The notes under the pieces were generated by a model. It was not told the DNA's origin and ran no database searches. It saw only the letters and a list, made by a program, of their open reading frames with translations. DNA of 14,851 bases from the NCBI GenBank assembly GCA_016932965.1, contig JAFGBW010000057.1:1-14851 (forward strand), given 5' to 3'. Within the stretch, counting starts at the first letter, position 1. Each line of letters opens with the position of its first letter. This DNA comes from Candidatus Auribacterota bacterium. Its GTDB lineage: Bacteria > Auribacterota > JAFGBW01. This document shows, piece after piece, positions 2,269 to 12,776 of this stretch. Made by a program: the position numbers and the translations under genes.

Positions 2269-3762
2269 GTGATTGAAAATATGGGAATCATCAATAAATT
2301 GATACAGGAATTTATTAAGAGGATATTCTATTCTCTATTGTTTTTTCATTGTCTGTTTTGCCTTTCGGCTTTTGGATCCGATACAGTCAGCATTCGCAAT
2401 CTTTCTGCAGACCAATATTATTCTTCGGTCATGGAAAACGTAAAAAATGCCCGGATTTCTGTTCTGGCAGGACTTTCCTCTCTATCATGCAAAACGAATA
2501 ATCCTGATGACCCTGTTTTCCGGATGATACAAAGCCTTGTGCTCGCCTCCATGGAAGGAATCAAGGTGGTTTTGGTATTAAATCCTTTTTATACCGGGGA
2601 GCTATCCAACTGTGCCTTCCGGGATAAGGCGATGGAATTGATAAGAAATTCCCGTATTTTGCTGATCACGGTTCCTGAGCCTTTTAGCCTGCGTTTCAAT
2701 CAGATTATCATTGATCAAAAGATCATTTTGGAAAGCTCTATTCCATGGATTTCCGGGATAGACACCCAGAACCATCTTCATTCATCATGGATCATTACTT
2801 CTGCAAAACTGGCTGAAGAAAAAACTAAGCTTTTGTCTCCTCTCGTGGAAAAGGGTCAAAAATGGACCATGGGACTCTCTTCTCCGGTCCTTAATCTGCC
2901 CGCCTCGTTTATTGAAAATAATCAGATCGCCTATTTCATGAAAAATAAAACCGGTGCCCTCCTGGATTGTTATCTTTATCTGCTGAAGGAACAATCGTCG
3001 CGGAATACAAAATGGTTATCCGTTTCCTTTTCCTCTCTTTTCTCCAGTCTTTTCTCCGAGGCTTCTTCAAAAACACAATCGCGGAAAAAAGTCCTTGGAA
3101 TTCTGAAAAAACTGAAAAGGGATTCTTTCATCGAACTGGAATGGGTGGATGAACAGAGTGTGCGCGTAAAAATTAAGAATGATGATCCCCAGCAGTATTT
3201 CATGATTCCGGAACGTTATTTTACCTGTCATCATGACAGGGATCTCGAACTCAGAGAAAAGCTTCTATACCTGTGGATGTTGTATCAGGCCACGAAGGGA
3301 AGAGCGTTTCCTCTTTTTCAGATGGATGAATCCTTTTATCAGGCGATTCCCAAAATAAAAAAATCAGATATGGAATCTCTCCTTTCCTCCCTTGAAAAAA
3401 AGATGCTCATCGAATTCTATCCTCCTGCCGTGATCACAGGCAAAGATTCACTTTTTATGCCCGCCTTTCTTTTTTTAGATCCCATGGATCTGAAAATCCT
3501 TCAGCAATCTCTGGAAACATTGAAAGATCAATACGGAGAAAGGGAAGTGAAAAAAGCCAGGATGATCCTGACTCAGGTCAACCGGGAGAATGACCCTGAG
3601 GCCGTTGCGGAAATTTTGTATTACCTGAAGAAAATCGGGATGGTGGAAACCCAGAAAGTGTTTTATCTTGTATGCAGTCTCCCTCCATACCACCCCAACA
3701 GAAATTACACTCATATCATCAGCCGGCTTGGCCAATCTGCCGCTGCTGAAAAAATGAAATGA
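2269..3762 (+). CDS. Predicted exported degenerate phospholipase-D-like protein with winged-helix-like regions
   Basis: I do not recognise a named family for the full 497-residue protein. Residues 15-36 form a basic then hydrophobic signal-peptide-like segment (FIKRIFYSLLFFHCLFCLSAFG). Residues 45-165 resemble one PLD phosphodiesterase repeat: an N-terminal helix (YYSSVMENVKNARISVL), a helix followed by a strand (LASMEGIKVVLVLNPF), then RFNQIIID followed six residues later by SSIPW. In active PLDs these would be HxKxxxxD and GSxN. Here only D149 and S157 survive, so catalysis is unlikely. Residues 209-303 (LPASF, YLYLL, a serine-rich helix, VLGILKKLKRDSFIEL, a closing strand) and 312-390 look like two winged-helix domains of the kind seen in replication initiators. 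The start is GTG 2269 with ATG 2281 as an alternative; neither has a clear Shine-Dalgarno sequence. It ends 10 nt before the metallo-hydrolase gene. Domain calls are by eye. Confidence 0.5.
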   Translation: MIENMGIINKLIQEFIKRIFYSLLFFHCLFCLSAFGSDTVSIRNLSADQYYSSVMENVKNARISVLAGLSSLSCKTNNPDDPVFRMIQSLVLASMEGIKVVLVLNPFYTGELSNCAFRDKAMELIRNSRILLITVPEPFSLRFNQIIIDQKIILESSIPWISGIDTQNHLHSSWIITSAKLAEEKTKLLSPLVEKGQKWTMGLSSPVLNLPASFIENNQIAYFMKNKTGALLDCYLYLLKEQSSRNTKWLSVSFSSLFSSLFSEASSKTQSRKKVLGILKKLKRDSFIELEWVDEQSVRVKIKNDDPQQYFMIPERYFTCHHDRDLELREKLLYLWMLYQATKGRAFPLFQMDESFYQAIPKIKKSDMESLLSSLEKKMLIEFYPPAVITGKDSLFMPAFLFLDPMDLKILQQSLETLKDQYGEREVKKARMILTQVNRENDPEAVAEILYYLKKIGMVETQKVFYLVCSLPPYHPNRNYTHIISRLGQSAAAEKMK

Positions 3763-3772
3763 TTGGATAGAC

Positions 3773-4441
3773 ATGGATAATGATATCATCATTGAGACTT
3801 TTCCCGTCGGCCCATTAGAGGTGAATTGTTCTATCATCTATTCACTAAGCACAAAAAAGGCCTTGGTCATTGATCCGGGGGATGATTATGCCGTTTTTTC
3901 AGAAAGAATCAGGAAGAAAGGACTGATCCTGGACAAGCTGCTTCATACGCATGGGCATTTTGATCATATCGGGACATCGGCAAAAATCAAAAAAACAAAT
4001 CAGGTCCCGATTTATCTTCATAAAGATGACCGTCTTCTTTATCAGCGGCTTAAAGAGCAGGGAGAATTATTCGGGTTTCCGACCGAGCCGCCTGCCGTCG
4101 TCGATGTTTTTTTTAATGACGGCCATGCCATAGGATGGGCCGGTTCATCCGGCAAGCCTTTTATAACCGTTATTCATACCCCCGGACATAGTCCTGGTTC
4201 TTCCTGTTTTTATACGGAGATCACCGGTAAACCGGTCCTTTTCAGCGGAGACACTCTTTTTGCACGCTCCATAGGAAGAACAGATGTCTTCGGGGGAAAT
4301 CATGCAAAAATTTTGAGTTCTATTAAGGAAAAGCTGTTTCTGCTTCCGTCTCAAACCGAGGTCATTCCGGGACATGGCCCTTATACGGTTCTTGGAATAG
4401 AAAAAAAAGAGAATCCCTTCCTGGATGATTCTGAGCTGTAG
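3773..4441 (+). CDS. Metallo-beta-lactamase-fold hydrolase, glyoxalase II type
   Basis: A 222-residue cytoplasmic hydrolase of the MBL superfamily. All metal ligands are visible: H60, H62, D64 and H65 in THGHFDH, H139 in HTPGHSPGS, D160 in FSGDTLF and H201 in PGHGP. The segment FARSIGRTD and the ending GIEKKENPFL are typical of the short, glyoxalase-II-like clade, which is near 210 residues and lacks the C-terminal helical domain of classical GloB. Family members hydrolyse thioesters such as S-lactoylglutathione or related substrates, but the substrate cannot be told from sequence alone. The start ATG 3773 has only a weak GGA at 3765-3767. It lies 10 nt after the PLD-like gene, so the pair is probably cotranscribed; a functional link is not evident. 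Confidence 0.9.
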   Translation: MDNDIIIETFPVGPLEVNCSIIYSLSTKKALVIDPGDDYAVFSERIRKKGLILDKLLHTHGHFDHIGTSAKIKKTNQVPIYLHKDDRLLYQRLKEQGELFGFPTEPPAVVDVFFNDGHAIGWAGSSGKPFITVIHTPGHSPGSSCFYTEITGKPVLFSGDTLFARSIGRTDVFGGNHAKILSSIKEKLFLLPSQTEVIPGHGPYTVLGIEKKENPFLDDSEL

Positions 4442-5589: not shown

Positions 5590-7392
5590 ATGAAACCGGA
5601 ACGATTCTTCGAACTGATTGCGGCGATCATCCTTTTCGTCTTTGCATTTCCGGATTTTTCCTGGGAAAAGGATGTGAATACCTGGGTGAAAGAGACTTTC
5701 ATCAGGATTTCTTTCAAATTGAGGGACCCGGGAGATACGGCGCGGAAGGCTTCTCATTATCTGGTGATTGAATGTCCCAAGATCCCGATACCGGAGACGA
5801 ACGAGAGTTTTTATGATGTGGCGGGAGTATTAAAAAAACTGCAGGTGTTGAATCCGGCCGTGATCATTTTTGATACGGATCCGGGCGTTTCAAAGGACTC
5901 TCCTCTCCAATATTGGCTCACCTCGCTGACATTCAAGGAAAAAATGGTATTCGTTTCCCCTGAAAAGGGCAGAAACATCGCCACGCTGTATAAACGTAAA
6001 AGGGACTATTCGATGACGAATGCTGTTTTTGCGTTTCATCAAAAAAAGAATCTGGAGGTGGCTTATTTCAAAGAATGGGATCATCTGCCACCCGTAGGGG
6101 ACAAAGTCGTTGAAATCATTTCTGATCGTTCCCAAACTCCAGGGGGGAAGGAGCCCGTCTTTATCCATTATTATTTTAATGATGAGGATATTCCGCATCA
6201 AAACAGCAGGGAACTGATTCAAACCCGGCTGCCCCCTTGCTCTTATGAAGGAAAAATCATTCTGATACGTACAGGGTCATTTTCCGCTTTTGAGAAACCT
6301 TTTCTCACGGCGGTAGGCATTCAGAAACCCGAAACTCTTTTATTCAATGATATTGAGACCCGTCTCAACAGGCCTGCTTCAAAAATGATTCCCGGGTATG
6401 CGGAATGGATTCTTCTGGGATTGTTTCTCTCTCTTTTGGCCTGGCTTTTTTTGCAATGCAATGTGTTGAAAGCTTTGATTTTTTCAATCTTTCTCTATGA
6501 ACTCAATTTTTTTGCCTGGTATTTTCTTTTTCAAAAGGGGTGGGATTTCCGTTATGGTGATTTTATCATTCTTCCGTTCCTGTTCATCCTGGCGGCAGGC
6601 GTTTTCAGGATTTCCCGGCTGACCCGCAATCAGGACGCTTTAAAAGAGCTGGAAGTGTTGAAAAAAATTCTCATTCACAGGAATAAAGAACTGGCCGCCA
6701 AGAATAGATTGAGTGAATTGGGAAGATTGAGCGCGAGCATTTATCATGAGATCAGCAATCCGCTTCATAATATCACGAATGCCATGAAATCGCTTAAACA
6801 GGGGGGGAAGTTTTCTCAGGAGTCCTCAGAAATCCTCGATATTGCCTTATCAGAACTGCAGCGTCTTCAGAGGCTGAGTAAAAATCTCAAACAGTTCTAT
6901 CATCCGGTCTCACAGGAAAAAAAACAGATCGATGTTAATGAACTATTGACATTTGGTTTTCAAATGATGAACACGGCGTTTTATGCGAAAAAAATTGAGA
7001 TCGTGAAAGACATGAAAACAGGTCGCTGTTTGGTGGATGCCAATCCGGATCAATTGCTGCAGGTTTTTCTTAATTTATTGCTGAATGCACTGGATGCGGT
7101 GAGGGAATCTGGAAAAATCTGGATCGAGAGCGGGGAGAAGGAAGGGCGGATTGTTGTGAAAATCAGGGATTCGGGCCCGGGTATAATAGATGAAATACGG
7201 GCCGATATTTTCAAAGCCTTTTTTACAACCAAGGGGGAGAAAGGCAGCGGACTGGGTCTTTCCGTTTCCTATGAGATCATCAACAGCCTCGGCGGGGACA
7301 TTGTTCTTTCTCCGTTTCAGGCAGGTTATGGGGCAGAATTCGTGATCCATCTGCCCAAAGCAGATCAAGTCGGATCAGACCTGAATAAATAG
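5590..7392 (+). CDS. CHASE2-domain sensor histidine kinase
   Basis: A 600-residue membrane sensor kinase. A hydrophobic segment (about 8-21) leads into a periplasmic region 30-265 with CHASE2 features: ISFKLRDPGD, YLVIEC, a helix plus LNPAVIIFDTDPG (88-99) and the closing strand YEGKIILIRTG. Three membrane helices follow (about 272-289, 293-313, 324-339), the standard CHASE2 topology, then a short linker helix. The dimerisation/phosphoacceptor box contains H386 in SIYHEISNPLHN. The ATPase domain has the N box NLLLNALDAV (N499), G1 DSGPGI (527-532), F box FKAFFTTK and G2 GSGLGL (552-557). All catalytic elements are intact, so it should autophosphorylate. No response regulator lies next to it, so its partner is elsewhere. 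CAGGA at 5582-5586 sits just before the ATG. It converges with the minus-strand CvpA-like gene 21 nt away. Confidence 0.92.
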   Translation: MKPERFFELIAAIILFVFAFPDFSWEKDVNTWVKETFIRISFKLRDPGDTARKASHYLVIECPKIPIPETNESFYDVAGVLKKLQVLNPAVIIFDTDPGVSKDSPLQYWLTSLTFKEKMVFVSPEKGRNIATLYKRKRDYSMTNAVFAFHQKKNLEVAYFKEWDHLPPVGDKVVEIISDRSQTPGGKEPVFIHYYFNDEDIPHQNSRELIQTRLPPCSYEGKIILIRTGSFSAFEKPFLTAVGIQKPETLLFNDIETRLNRPASKMIPGYAEWILLGLFLSLLAWLFLQCNVLKALIFSIFLYELNFFAWYFLFQKGWDFRYGDFIILPFLFILAAGVFRISRLTRNQDALKELEVLKKILIHRNKELAAKNRLSELGRLSASIYHEISNPLHNITNAMKSLKQGGKFSQESSEILDIALSELQRLQRLSKNLKQFYHPVSQEKKQIDVNELLTFGFQMMNTAFYAKKIEIVKDMKTGRCLVDANPDQLLQVFLNLLLNALDAVRESGKIWIESGEKEGRIVVKIRDSGPGIIDEIRADIFKAFFTTKGEKGSGLGLSVSYEIINSLGGDIVLSPFQAGYGAEFVIHLPKADQVGSDLNK

Positions 7393-7413: not shown

Positions 7414-8040
7414 TTATTCTTTTTTTCCGTCAGGAGTTTTTTCTTCCAGCCGTTTATTGACGTCCGCAACGTATCGTTCTGCCTGGAATTTTTTTTCCAG
7501 GGTGAGCGCCGTTGATGCGGTATTGTAAACAGGGGCGACGGCAGTGAGAAAGTACGAGACTGTCATGCAATGATGGGAAAGGATTTTTGTCAACGGGGGA
7601 AATGGCACGAGCAGAAGAAAAAATAAAAAAGTAGCAGCCAGTGTTCCTGTATTGGCCATTCCGATGAGGCTTCCGAACGACTGTTCCAGGGTAGGGATGA
7701 ATTTGATTTCAACGATTTTTTTCTGAATGGCAATGCACAGGGTTGCCAGGAGGAATGTTGCGGTCCAGATGGAAAGGAAAATGGCTGTTTCCACGATTTC
7801 TTGTGTGATGATGCTTTCCTTGGTAAGAAGGGTGGATGTGAGGATTTTTTCTGCTGCAAACTGATGAAAATGAACCGCCAGGGCTACTGCGGCAAAGCTT
7901 CTCATCCAGCTGAAAATCTCCTGGGAGAGGCTTTTTTTAGCCCCCAGGTACGCCCCTAATAAAATGATGATGAGGATCACTCCATCGCCAATCCAGTTTG
8001 CGGCGCCTCCCGTTAATAATGAATCAGAAAATTTATCCAT
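7414..8040 (-). CDS. CvpA-family membrane protein
   Basis: A 208-residue inner-membrane protein with about four hydrophobic segments (16-34, 47-57, 85-106, 130-150). Its pattern matches the CvpA/colicin V production family: an N-terminal helix ending in GAYLGAKKSLSQEIFSWMRSFAA, and a central LEQSFGSLIGMANTGTLAATFLFFLLL. CvpA proteins are small membrane proteins of poorly defined role, linked to envelope stress and, in E. coli, colicin V secretion. The C-terminal 40 residues are charged and probably cytoplasmic. The start lies inside the end of the GT2 gene (28-nt overlap), and the upstream 20 nt are almost pure A/T with no Shine-Dalgarno sequence, so translation probably depends on readthrough of ribosomes from the GT2 gene. 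The family is fairly secure, the function is not. Confidence 0.72.
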   Translation of the reverse strand: MDKFSDSLLTGGAANWIGDGVILIIILLGAYLGAKKSLSQEIFSWMRSFAAVALAVHFHQFAAEKILTSTLLTKESIITQEIVETAIFLSIWTATFLLATLCIAIQKKIVEIKFIPTLEQSFGSLIGMANTGTLAATFLFFLLLVPFPPLTKILSHHCMTVSYFLTAVAPVYNTASTALTLEKKFQAERYVADVNKRLEEKTPDGKKE

Positions 8041-9014
8041 TTATTTTTTAAAAAATATTTTCGGTATTGGTACTTGTTTTCCCAGTTCAAAAATTTTTTT
8101 GAATGATTAAAAGAAGAATTCCATAAACCGATCAATACATAAAGATTTCTTAAAAAAAGGTCAATAAAGCATTCCGTCAGAAGAGTGAGGCTGAAAAGCA
8201 TCTTGAAAAAAATCATGAAGAGGAGATAAGAGAAAGGCCGCATATTCTTCTGGAGGTATTTCATATAAGACTCAAAGCGGTAAAACTGAACGAGATTGTT
8301 GACCTGTTTTCTGCTTTGTCCTCCGGAATGGGTGATTTGCGCGTCAGGAAGATAACAGACGGACAGATTTTTTTCCCTGGCTCTCCGGCAGAAGTCCACT
8401 TCTTCGCAAAAGATGAAAAACCGTTCATCCATCAGACCGATCCTATCAAGCGTTTTCCGGCTGAACATCATGGCCGCTCCTGATACCTGGTCGACTTCCA
8501 TGAATACGGAGAGATCGGCATTCCTCATGCGATAACGGTCAATACGGGTCCTGAAAAAGGGGAATTTCTTTAAAAAGGTGTAGCGTGCCAGAATAACAGC
8601 AGCGGTCGGAAACTGTCTCAATCCGTTTTGGATGGTTCCGTCCGTATTGAGAAGCTGAGGGCCTATGATTCCAATTTCGGGATGCGTATCCAGAAAAGCC
8701 GTCATTTTTTCAAGACTCTGCTCGTGAAGTATCGTATCCGGATTCAACAGCAGAATCATAGTCCCCTTGGATGCTTTGATGGCCACATTGCAGCCCGCGG
8801 CAAAACCGATATTTTTTTTCTGGGGAAAAAACTGGATCGCGGGGAATTCCTTGACGATCATGTCCGCAGTCTGGTCTAAGGAGTCGTTGTCCACCAGTAA
8901 GATTTCATACGACAAATTTTTTACGTGCTGTTGAATGGAGTTGAGGCACTTTCTCAATTCGTTCTGCACGTTATAAGAGACAATGCAGATACTCAAATCA
9001 GGTGCTTTTTCCAT
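8013..9014 (-). CDS. GT2 family glycosyltransferase (rhamnosyltransferase-like)
   Basis: A GT-A fold glycosyltransferase of about 333 residues. Visible elements (numbered from the optional TTG 9026) are the nucleotide-binding strand DLSICIVSYN (10-19), LLVDNDSLDQT (43-53), KNIGFAAGCNVAI (71-83), the DXD-equivalent NPD (95-97), VSGAAMMFSRKTLDRIGLMDE (181-201), FCEEVDFCRRAR (206-217) and HSGGQSRK (233-240). This set is typical of WbbL-like rhamnosyl or related sugar transferases that extend O-antigen or similar glycans. Two hydrophobic stretches near 264-302 followed by a basic, aromatic tail suggest membrane association. ATG 9014 is chosen as start; TTG 9026 adds four residues and lies nearer a purine-rich stretch, so the start is uncertain. 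It is followed by the overlapping CvpA-like gene. Confidence 0.92.
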   Translation of the reverse strand: MEKAPDLSICIVSYNVQNELRKCLNSIQQHVKNLSYEILLVDNDSLDQTADMIVKEFPAIQFFPQKKNIGFAAGCNVAIKASKGTMILLLNPDTILHEQSLEKMTAFLDTHPEIGIIGPQLLNTDGTIQNGLRQFPTAAVILARYTFLKKFPFFRTRIDRYRMRNADLSVFMEVDQVSGAAMMFSRKTLDRIGLMDERFFIFCEEVDFCRRAREKNLSVCYLPDAQITHSGGQSRKQVNNLVQFYRFESYMKYLQKNMRPFSYLLFMIFFKMLFSLTLLTECFIDLFLRNLYVLIGLWNSSFNHSKKFLNWENKYQYRKYFLKNKWINFLIHY

Positions 9015-9547: not shown

Positions 9548-10828
9548 ATGTTGCAAAACGTCCGCGGCACAGAAGATGTCCTACCAGGAGCCAGTCAGCA
9601 GTGGTTGTGGTTGGAAGAAAAGGCGAGAAGCTGGTTAAAACGGTTTAATTTCGAAGAAATCCGCACTCCCATTTTTGAATTGACGGAACTGTTCATCCGT
9701 TCCATCGGGGAGACTACCGATATCGTCAACAAGGAGATGTACACTTTTTCTGACCGCAAAGGCCGTTCGTTGACTTTGCGGCCTGAAGGAACCGCATCCG
9801 TAGTCAGAGCCTGTCTCCAGCACAAGCTGATCCAGCCTAATCAGGTCCTTAAACTCTATTATATCGGCCCCATGTTCCGGTATGAAAGACCCCAGGCCGG
9901 GAGACAGCGTCAGTTTCATCAGATCGGTATAGAAATTCTCGGGTGTGAAAGACCTGCAGCTGATCTGGAATCCATTTTATTATTGAAATCTCTGTTTCAG
10001 GAATGGGGAATTTCACGAGTCGGTTTCCGGATCAATTCCACAGGAAGCAGGGGATCAAGACCTCTTGTTCAGAAGCGTTTGAGAGAGTGGCTTTCACCCC
10101 ATATTCAAGATCTATGCGCGGATTGCCGCAATCGTTACGAAAAAAATGTTTTCCGGGTTTATGATTGCAAAGAAAAGTCCTGTAAATCCATCATCGGAAC
10201 CCTTCCCGGAATACTGGAGATATTGTCTGAAGAGGACAGGAAATACTTTGATGATGTAAGGAAAGGGCTTGACCAGATGGGAGTAGAGTATGAGCTGGAT
10301 CCTCATCTGGTTCGCGGTCTGGATTATTATACCCACACGATTTTTGAAGCGTATTCAGATCAGCTCGGTTCCTGTGATGCCATAGCAGGGGGGGGAAGAT
10401 ATGACGGGCTCTTTCAGGAGATGGGTTCCGCAGTACAAGTGCCTGCGGTCGGATGGGGCATAGGCATGGAGCGGATCCTGAACGTTCTGCAGTCGCTTTC
10501 TCTTTTGCCGTCTGTTTCCGGACCGGATATTGTTGTGATTGCTTCCGGAGATGAAAATACATCCCAAAATATCCCTGTAGTCCAGGAGTTAAGACAAGCC
10601 GGATTCAAGGTTGAATACGACCTTCTGGGAAGAAACATGAAGGCGCAATTCAGACTCGCCGACCGTACCGGTGCCAGACTGGCCGTGATTCGCGGCGAAA
10701 ATGAAATCCAAGGCAGAAAAGTAAAAATCAAAGATTTGACCTCCCATGAGGAAATCGAATTGGATGAAGACAAGCTTCTTTTAAAAGTAAAAGAAATCCT
10801 TTCTGCTGCTAAGAAGGTGTCATCATAG
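9548..10828 (+). CDS. hisS: Histidyl-tRNA synthetase
   Basis: Class II aminoacyl-tRNA synthetase that charges tRNA-His in the cytoplasm. The 426-residue protein begins MLQNVRGTEDVLPG, the usual HisRS N-terminus. Motif 1 surrounds RTPIFELTELFIRS (39-52), and TLRPEGTASVVRA is at 76-88. Motif 2 is GPMFRYERPQAGRQRQFHQIG (107-127). The histidine-specific boxes are LVRGLDYYT (254-262) and AGGGRYDGL (280-288), and motif 3 is GWGIGMERIL (302-311). The C-terminal anticodon-binding domain runs from about 325 to 425 with DLLGRNMKAQFRLADRTGA. Four cysteines (190, 193, 207, 212) sit in the insertion between catalytic parts. The same frame stays open upstream to GTG 9470, but that would overlap the HU gene and add non-homologous residues. 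ATG 9548 has no Shine-Dalgarno sequence; a T8 run lies in the 13-nt gap, so coupling to HU translation is likely. Confidence 0.97.
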   Translation: MLQNVRGTEDVLPGASQQWLWLEEKARSWLKRFNFEEIRTPIFELTELFIRSIGETTDIVNKEMYTFSDRKGRSLTLRPEGTASVVRACLQHKLIQPNQVLKLYYIGPMFRYERPQAGRQRQFHQIGIEILGCERPAADLESILLLKSLFQEWGISRVGFRINSTGSRGSRPLVQKRLREWLSPHIQDLCADCRNRYEKNVFRVYDCKEKSCKSIIGTLPGILEILSEEDRKYFDDVRKGLDQMGVEYELDPHLVRGLDYYTHTIFEAYSDQLGSCDAIAGGGRYDGLFQEMGSAVQVPAVGWGIGMERILNVLQSLSLLPSVSGPDIVVIASGDENTSQNIPVVQELRQAGFKVEYDLLGRNMKAQFRLADRTGARLAVIRGENEIQGRKVKIKDLTSHEEIELDEDKLLLKVKEILSAAKKVSS

Positions 10829-10863: not shown

Positions 10864-12543
10864 TTGAAGAAGGGAGAATGCTGCCCCCCAAAGCGGCTTT
10901 TTCTTCTCCTTTTGATTTTGATGGTGGTCGTTGTTTTTGGCAGGACTCTGGAGAATGGATTTGTCTACGATGACTGGGAGACCATCGTGGATAATCCCCA
11001 TGTCCATTCACTCCAAAACGGTTTTTCATTTTTTTTTGACAGGAATTCCACGGCTCCGGAAACGCACCTGAAGCATGAGATTTACCGTCCAATAAAAAGC
11101 TGGAGTTGCGCTCTGGATCATTTCATATTCAGGGGCAATCCTGCAGGTTATCATCTGACAAATGTGTTGTTACATCTTGTTGCGGTCCTCTTGCTGAATC
11201 AGTTGCTGATCAGTATGGGTTATCCTGTTTTCACGGCTTTCATGGCCTCACTGTTTTTTGCCGTCCATCCGGCCATAAGCCAGAATGTCTCTTACATCAG
11301 CGCCAGGGCTGACATCCTGGCAACCGTTTTTCTGCTTGCCTGTTCCCGGATCGTTTTTTTAGGCCAGCCGGAGACGGTGTTCCGGAAGATAGTTGGACCA
11401 GCCTTGTTTTTCACAGCCTGTCTGGCCAAGGAAACCTCGGTGGTCTTCCCCATATTTTATGTTTTCGTGTATCGTTATGTTCATAAGCCTTTTCGTTCCG
11501 TTTTTTCTTATGGCATTGCCGCTCTTTTATATCTGGTATTGAGACAAACCGTTGTGGGCGGGTTTTTCCAGACCTATTATTATCAAAACAGTTTTTGGAT
11601 CACACAGGCGGCCATGGTCAAGGTCTGGCTTTTGTATATTGCGGGATTTTTCTGGCCGTTTCATCTGGAGATTGCGCCCATCATCGAGACTGAATCTGGC
11701 TGGGCCGGGCCCTTTGTCTGGTTTTCGGCAGTGGCGCTTGCCAGCCTGGGGATCCTGATATGGATAAGAAGGAAACATCTTGGAAAGGCAGGAATAGGGC
11801 TGGTCTGGTTTTTCCTTTTTCTTCTGCCGGTAGCGAATTTGATCCCTATTAAGGCCTTGATGGCATGGCGTTTTGTCTATATCCCCTGGGTCGGTATGAG
11901 CCTGGTTTTCTGTCATTACTTTGAAAAAATTCAGCGGTCGAGAACGGCCGTATTTTTTATTTTTTTCTGGCTGCTGGTTTTAACGCTGTATTCTGTGAGG
12001 ACGGTTTCGACTTTTCAAACCGATGAAACCCTCTGGAAGCCTTTAATGGAGAAATACCCCCATTTGTCCAAACCCTACCATGTGGTAGGGAACTATTATT
12101 TGAGAGAGAAGGAAATCGTCCGGGCCCAGCATGTTTTTGAAACAGGATTACAGTCTGTTCCTGATGATGCTTATCTGATGTGGGATCTGGCCCGTATCCA
12201 TGCCATGCAAGGGAATACAGGGAAATCCCTCGATCTCCTGGAGAAAATAAATCAGCCGATGCGGCGGGAACTGGGCCAGGGTTTTTTGTATGATTACGTG
12301 TTCGCGTTATATCAGGAAAAAAAGTACGGGCAGATATGGAAAACCCTTTCTTTCCCGGATATTTCAGGCATGAAAACCAAGATACTTTTGATCCAGGCCC
12401 ATGGGTCGGTCCTGGCTGATCACAAGGATTCAGCCGAGATCCTTTATGAGGAGTTGCTCACCAGAGGGGATTTGACTGCTGCCCAGCGTGAAGATTGTTC
12501 AGCTGTCCTGGCGATGCTGAAAGCGGAAAAAATACATGAATGA
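10864..12543 (+). CDS. TMTC-like GT-C membrane glycosyltransferase with C-terminal TPR-like repeats
   Basis: A 559-residue polytopic membrane protein. After the first membrane helix (about 11-26) comes NGFVYDDWETIVDNP (31-45), whose acidic pair D36-D37 is the catalytic-loop signature of GT-C enzymes using lipid-linked sugars. Further TMTC-like marks are EIYRPI (72-77), GYHLTNVLLHL (95-105), FFAVHPAISQNVSYISARAD (131-150), CLAKETSVVFP (186-196) and LPVANLIPIKALMAWRFVYIPWVG (321-344). About ten membrane helices end near 378. Residues 400-460 then hold two TPR-like helix pairs (YHVVGNYYLREKEIVRAQ.., YLMWDLARIHAMQ..). TMTC proteins in animals O-mannosylate proteins; bacterial relatives are mostly uncharacterised. 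No ATG start is in frame before M20; TTG 10864 is assigned. ATG 10878, better placed after AAGG, is in another frame and would join this one if the C6 tract 10884-10889 were C5. It lies 35 nt after hisS. Confidence 0.78.
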   Translation: MKKGECCPPKRLFLLLLILMVVVVFGRTLENGFVYDDWETIVDNPHVHSLQNGFSFFFDRNSTAPETHLKHEIYRPIKSWSCALDHFIFRGNPAGYHLTNVLLHLVAVLLLNQLLISMGYPVFTAFMASLFFAVHPAISQNVSYISARADILATVFLLACSRIVFLGQPETVFRKIVGPALFFTACLAKETSVVFPIFYVFVYRYVHKPFRSVFSYGIAALLYLVLRQTVVGGFFQTYYYQNSFWITQAAMVKVWLLYIAGFFWPFHLEIAPIIETESGWAGPFVWFSAVALASLGILIWIRRKHLGKAGIGLVWFFLFLLPVANLIPIKALMAWRFVYIPWVGMSLVFCHYFEKIQRSRTAVFFIFFWLLVLTLYSVRTVSTFQTDETLWKPLMEKYPHLSKPYHVVGNYYLREKEIVRAQHVFETGLQSVPDDAYLMWDLARIHAMQGNTGKSLDLLEKINQPMRRELGQGFLYDYVFALYQEKKYGQIWKTLSFPDISGMKTKILLIQAHGSVLADHKDSAEILYEELLTRGDLTAAQREDCSAVLAMLKAEKIHE

Positions 12544-12620: not shown

Positions 12621-12776
12621 GGAATTCAGAATTCAGGAGAGAAAATTCAGAATAGTTGAGGAAATATTCTTGAGAGAGAAGCCGGTTATCTGATTGCATC
12701 CTTAGTAAGATTAATATCCATGTATTCAATCATCTATTTTTTTATACTGGATTCTGAATTCTGACTCCTGAATTCC
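12621..12776 (+). repeat. Inverted heptamer-repeat arms flanking about 100 nt
   Basis: The element begins GGAATTCAG (12621-12629) and ends CTGAATTCC (12768-12776), perfect inverted 9-nt termini. A longer alignment pairs 12629-12653 with 12751-12775 at 22 of 25 positions. The left arm is made of GAATTCA units (GAATTCA, GAATTCA, GGAGAGA, AAATTCA); the right arm has the same units on the other strand. The 97 nt between the inner arms is AT-rich, with no ORF of note. I see no clear target-site duplication outside the ends, so a mobile origin is only a possibility. Confidence 0.55.

Follow-up and report, generated by a model that had tools for sequence, protein, structure and literature searches.

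Nuc of pKM101/Salmonella (1byr) and NucT of H. pylori (6ehi) carry a signal-like N-terminus and one PLD repeat, with an active site of the form HxK(x)4D(x)6GSxN. NucT is a periplasmic, membrane-associated nuclease that has been linked to purine salvage and transformation and has its active site at the dimer interface (PMC5714352). Two further groups of described proteins resemble homologues of the gene analysed here: Rep_3/RepE plasmid initiators contain two successive winged helices, and DnaD-like helicase loaders and DnaB_2 proteins (phrog_186, PF07261) combine a winged helix with a C-terminal helical domain. The plasmid initiators act in the cytoplasm, and winged helices of the RepE/DnaD type are, outside the proteins described below, known from cytoplasmic initiators and helicase loaders.

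The window, the whole stretch of 14,851 nucleotides that was analysed, is one entire contig (C116) of a Candidatus Auribacterota genome of 3.1 Mb (G000); Auribacterota is a phylum within the PVC group, and G001 is a relative in the same order. One of its genes, with GTG as the start codon and an in-frame ATG at 2281 as an alternative, encodes a protein in which a signal-peptide-like segment is followed by a degenerate PLD domain, a pair of winged helices and, at the C-terminus, a helical domain (Table 1). A sequence-only reading of this DNA had seen the combination of the first three and had offered two ways out of the conflict in location: either the hydrophobic segment is not a signal, or the winged helices serve protein contact in the periplasm. 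As shown below, its reading of the domains holds, while the option of a non-signal segment is disfavoured.

Table 1. Coordinates of the window gene, its parts and its downstream neighbour
Feature	Position in window	Strand	Details
Complete gene: export-type N-terminus, degenerate PLD, two winged helices, helical domain	2269..3762	+	497 aa
Signal-peptide-like N-terminus	2269..2379	+	basic n-region, hydrophobic residues 19-37 (IFYSLLFFHCLFCLSAFGS), net negative flank
Single PLD domain, Nuc/NucT-type, fold kept	2389..2844	+	residues 41-192; HMM and fold search
Degenerate active site	2692..2748	+	RFNQIIID replaces HxKxxxxD, SSIPW replaces GSxNW
Winged helix 1	2887..3174	+	residues 207-302; HMM E 5.9e-10; model elements H229-245 to E297-302
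Winged helix 2	3196..3474	+	residues 310-402; HMM E 2.6e-8 for 302-383; model
C-terminal helical domain, DnaD / DnaB_2-like in homologues	3490..3756	+	residues 408-496; model helices
Metallo-beta-lactamase-fold hydrolase, downstream neighbour	3773..4441	+	11 bp after window gene

Domain architecture of the window protein

We searched the window protein with an HMM of 19 related PLD domains and with HMMs of the C-terminal module, all of which exclude the window protein itself, the other degenerate copy (G001:C5) and the second copy of its own genome (G000:C154). The PLD HMM matched residues 41-192 with an E-value of 8.9e-13 (44 bits, compared with 7.5 bits for the best of 1000 shuffles). The PLD part of an AlphaFold2 model of the window protein, computed on an eight-sequence alignment (mean pLDDT 74), was superposed by fold search, over residues 39-201, on H. 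pylori NucT (6ehi; Z 18.3) and on Nuc of Salmonella (1byr; Z 18.6, with 147 residues aligned at 2.3 A). The window protein has the single PLD fold that defines Nuc and NucT. Its active site reads R142-x-N144-xxxx-D149 ... S156-S157-I158-P159-W160, that is, RxN(x)4D...SSxP, and three of the eight scored positions (H, K, D, G, S, N, W, E) are kept, namely D149, S157 and W160. Because the defining active-site pattern is lost, the window copy should not be called a nuclease; judging from these residues, it is a pseudo-enzyme paralogue, predicted to be catalytically dead. The sequence-only reading was right about the single degenerate PLD repeat. When the window protein was searched by itself, none of Pfam, NCBIfam, PHROGs, PADLOC and the PDB sequences gave a match above cut-off, the copy being too diverged to be recognised in curated searches. 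Its Pfam matches to MksE and Ipi1_N, below cut-off and confined to the winged-helix region, were rejected as chance or generic winged-helix similarity.

The whole-module HMM matched residues 207-485 of the window protein with an E-value of 1.6e-30 (102 bits; best shuffle, 11), and residues 229-302 and 328-402 of the AlphaFold2 model show the helix/strand order of two winged helices. The matches listed in the fold search of this model are to PLD proteins; the superposition on RepE comes from L068, an intact homologue that shares 25% identity with the window protein (model pLDDT 78) and whose residues 212-426, comprising both winged helices, align with RepE54, the initiator of mini-F, and with complexes of it (8ac8_C, Z 12.8, 189 residues, 4.3 A; 1rep_C, Z 12.3). 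A search of a viral structure library gave phage replication initiators among its matches. At the sequence level, 8 of 16 modules matched phrog_186, annotated as “DnaD-like helicase loader” (best 2e-7), and other matches were to “replication initiation” families; in a PLD-less member (L099), residues 158-319, covering winged helix 2 and the helical domain, matched phrog_186 at 4.5e-5. Single members matched HTH_36 (2.9e-6) and DnaB_2 (0.003) of Pfam, and the module profile found one winged-helix regulator among PDB sequences at 6e-4, with the rest at chance level. Structural and sequence methods both point to initiators and helicase loaders as kin of the module, and HMM homology together with the same helix/strand order suggests that the module of the window protein is likewise initiator-type. 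The two replication-initiator-like winged helices proposed earlier agree with the module HMMs, the window model and, for the homologue, the RepE54 superposition. We infer that the module binds DNA. Most members have a basic winged helix 1, but in the nucleases of one genome (G269) this domain is acidic; the acidity of the module in these PLD-bearing copies argues against general DNA binding there.

Family members and their N-terminal segments

The family comprises 26 collected members from Auribacterota and two further phyla. Four Auribacterota genomes (G000, G001, G006 and G011) contain at least two copies each, and a fifth has a relic only. In the second phylum, copies were found in three of the four genomes sampled (G269, G129 and G384), and the copy in the single genome from the third (G185) is divided between two frames. 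A profile scan of genome contigs with closer alignment gave seven loci, and overlapping samples of 384-386 genomes across the domain yielded no other convincing member. Among the 23 PLD-bearing members, the H, K, D, S and N of the PLD site are intact in 21, and the site is lost in the window protein and in G001:C5 (NxRxxxxD...GSxV), a degenerate active site being the exception in the family. A common origin of these two dead copies is not supported by the tree, in which both lie on long branches. Three of the 26 members lack the PLD domain: those of G129 and G269:C3 are orthologues with 66% identity and shared synteny, each flanked by a response-regulator/GGDEF gene on one side and a beta-helix gene on the other, and G384:C206 has an internal deletion with a frame change. 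Some G011 copies end after winged helix 2, without the helical domain, and winged helix 1 of G000:C154 is too diverged for HMM recognition. The constant part consists of two winged helices behind an N-terminal hydrophobic segment, with the PLD domain intact, dead or missing. The family appears to be small and unrecognised, its novelty being an initiator-type module added to an exported protein of the Nuc/NucT kind; limited literature searches with partial coverage returned no paper on RepE/DnaD-type winged helices preceded by an export signal.

Topology was judged from composition and from conservation among homologues. Each of the 24 members whose N-terminus could be read carries a signal-like segment, whether it has a PLD domain or not, and in the syntenic orthologues without PLD (L098 and L099) it runs directly into the winged helices. 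The 24 N-termini begin with a net charge of +1 to +4 and continue with 11-19 hydrophobic residues; the flank that follows is in most cases neutral or negative, and AXA-like ends are frequent (NLFA|V, PLFA|D, LKA|E, NLAA|E, IAFA|Q). Cleaved signal peptides are laid out in this way, and the positive-inside rule would place the rest of the protein outside. The signal of the window protein is the weakest of the full-length set (11-residue hydrophobic maximum, 2.24), with a longer n-region, of 18 residues if counted from the GTG and 14 if counted from the ATG. The segment is conserved and looks like a genuine signal, and the family members are predicted to be exported from the cytoplasm. Composition and conservation agree with the signal-peptide-like segment of the sequence-only reading and disfavour its alternative of a segment without signal function. 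None of the 24 starts beyond residue 36 without the hydrophobic segment, an outcome that this reading had named as one that would refute it. The conflict in location that it had pointed out, with initiator-type folds behind an export signal, is real and conserved rather than an accident of one gene.

Genomic context and interpretation of the window gene

The window gene lies downstream of a gene for a rhomboid-type protease and one that we take, from its own sequence, to be smpB, and it may share a transcript with the metallo-beta-lactamase-fold (MBL) hydrolase gene that follows. The pairing is not conserved, as MBL homologues in G001, G002 and G006 have different neighbours, and no rhomboid gene was found there. 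No restriction, AbiE, OLD-like or RmrA-like gene and no integron integrase adjoins the window copy, a search upstream of it for an attC-like structure found none, and no conserved neighbour links it to DNA uptake. Elsewhere in the window, a histidine kinase (5590-7392) whose N-terminal sensor weakly resembles CHASE2 (E 0.1) is placed between glycosyltransferase and CvpA-like genes, and inverted repeats (34 bp, 74%; 25 bp, 88%) flank a GAATTC-rich stretch between two membrane-protein genes (12621-12776). Another locus of the same genome (L048) contains dispersed repeats of 140-210 bp between genes in both orientations (240-443, 1079-1218, 5730-5872, 7974-8138, 9646-9821 and 11814-12030), two of which bracket the second family copy.

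Other copies have different surroundings. Three are near integron integrases (TIGR02249, E 3e-126 or better; L049 2739-3785, L054 489-1457 and L113 2228-3517) whose 3′ ends face the family copies, a reversed-integron layout. Inverted repeats of attC-like form were seen downstream in L049 (2427-2453/2546-2572) and L054 (1510-1547/1618-1655), and one copy has an attC-like perfect inverted repeat of 27 bp between gene and integrase; some family copies may be gene cassettes. In L065 (5573-7966), copy G011:C144 is interrupted by an IS with an integrase-type transposase (5809-7389). The G011 genome also contains intergenic palindromes about 60 bp long (GGGAAAGTCCCAAGCGAGCG...GGACTGTCCC) that flank family copies and resemble a small dispersed element (L061 9799-9855, 11087-11145 and 11495-11553; L063 2504-2564, 5061-5120 and 8811-8871).

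We consider the window gene to be a dead paralogue in a family of exported nucleases that has kept the DNA-binding module, with a probability of about 0.5. The signal peptide would lead family members out of the cytoplasm, the NucT-like single-HKD PLD domain would, from its intact residues and fold, cut nucleic acid as a dimer, and the RepE/DnaD-type double winged-helix module would hold DNA in the periplasm or at the cell surface. The window protein would have lost the chemistry and kept the fold, the signal and the module, and would most likely act outside the cytoplasm by binding DNA that it does not cleave, or by binding the subunits of an active paralogue as its partners. The purpose may be DNA capture or uptake, for nutrients or transformation. 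Extracytoplasmic DNA binding had not been considered in the sequence-only reading; it fits a NucT-like fusion better than protein contact does, which is nevertheless a possible role of the winged helices. As a tentative and rather doubtful extension, an initiator or helicase-loader module of phage or plasmid origin may have become an exported DNA receptor, with the window protein and the PLD-less orthologues binding sequence-selectively in the periplasm or at the surface and the nuclease paralogues cutting.

We favour a functional pseudo-nuclease over a functionless paralogue that is being lost and has stayed open so far by chance, which we judge unlikely. Its branch is the longest in the tree (3.9, compared with 2.35 for the other dead copy and a median of 0.51), and both dead copies have long branches as do genes losing constraint. 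The identity of its PLD domain to intact members is 0.195, whereas that among intact members is 0.393, other relics occur in the family, and a test for preferential loss of catalytic residues relative to other conserved ones was negative (3/8 versus 12/25 kept). The dN/dS of the whole gene is 0.10-0.22 in pairs of close relatives, indicating purifying selection on PLD and module, and 0.13 for winged helix 1 of the PLD-less pair, where dS is near saturation; the window copy has no close relative for such an estimate. Loss by decay is nevertheless difficult to reconcile with 497 codons that are open despite changes at five of the eight site residues. In a neutral simulation with 62.5% of residues changed, the share changed at the site, about 31 stops were expected in 496 codons, and 3 were still expected at 10% amino-acid change, whereas none is seen. 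The hydrophobic core is also kept at 33 of 38 positions in the PLD domain and at 23 of 24 and 21 of 25 in the winged helices, although this conservation is partly owed to common ancestry alone.

A role at the envelope as a barrier is about as improbable as decay: the genes would be mobile cargo, an exported nuclease aimed by the initiator-type module would attack incoming phage or plasmid DNA, and the dead copy would be a diverged variant or a regulator of an active paralogue. Several copies adjoin genes of defence type, including type I restriction-modification (L061 11634-16570), AbiEi/AbiEii (L062 5524-6962), an OLD/GajA-like ATPase directly upstream (L056 7305-9131) and an RmrA-like gene with DUF4411 (L050 9422-11052). 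The vicinity of integron integrases, the many copies per genome with a patchy distribution, and the breakage of some by IS or deletion point the same way. The window copy, however, lies among smpB, rhomboid and MBL hydrolase genes, neighbours vary between copies, and such islands collect genes of every kind; moreover, the nearest defence profile, DrmC of DISARM, gives 67 bits for L068, half its curated cut-off of 133, and none of the DISARM partners was noted. Least probable, and in our view very unlikely, is that the N-terminal segment is only a membrane anchor of a cytoplasmic body, the protein being a membrane-bound initiator- or helicase-loader-like protein of a mobile element fused to PLD. 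The resemblance of the module to RepE, DnaD and DnaB_2, the last of which is given by Pfam as acting in replication initiation and membrane attachment, would suit such an origin. Against it stand the charge distribution around the segment, the short h-regions with their frequent AXA-like ends as in cleaved signals, and the periplasmic location of NucT, the nearest fold of known location. Viral contigs also gave no relative, and in plasmid and phage records the matches were confined to the PLD domain and spanned no more than 32% of the query, with no full-length relative.

In 24 proteins from three phyla, initiator-type winged helices stand consistently behind an export-type segment, whether the nuclease is present or not. 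If exported, they would represent a new sort of extracytoplasmic DNA-binding part and would be relevant to the capture, processing or blocking of foreign DNA by environmental bacteria that have received little study. Around a constant module the nuclease occurs naturally in intact, dead and missing form, a series that makes the role of the module by itself accessible to questioning.

Comparison with known systems

DrmC of DISARM contains a PLD-like domain and is the top NCBIfam and PADLOC match of intact members. We rejected membership in DrmC, since the intact homologue falls short of the cut-off as given above and the window protein gives no match, and DrmC is not known to occur with an export signal or an initiator module. 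The two successive winged helices of Rep_3/RepE plasmid initiators superpose on those of the homologue over 189 residues (Z 12-13), but the family differs in its low identity (9-10%), its export signal and its fused nuclease, and no replicon context was noted. DnaD-like helicase loaders and DnaB_2 proteins share with the family a winged helix followed by a C-terminal helical domain, and their profiles are matched by homologues, though not by the window protein alone; the family has an extra winged helix in front, an export signal and usually a PLD domain. For the models of both the window protein and the intact homologue, the top structural matches include Nuc and NucT (Z 18-20). These two stop after the PLD domain, whereas family members continue for about 280 residues with initiator-like winged helices and the helical domain, and their active site, that of Nuc and NucT, is lost in the window copy, whereas HxKxxxxD...SxN is kept in 21 family members. 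The window protein is most like Nuc/NucT with an added, putative DNA-binding part.
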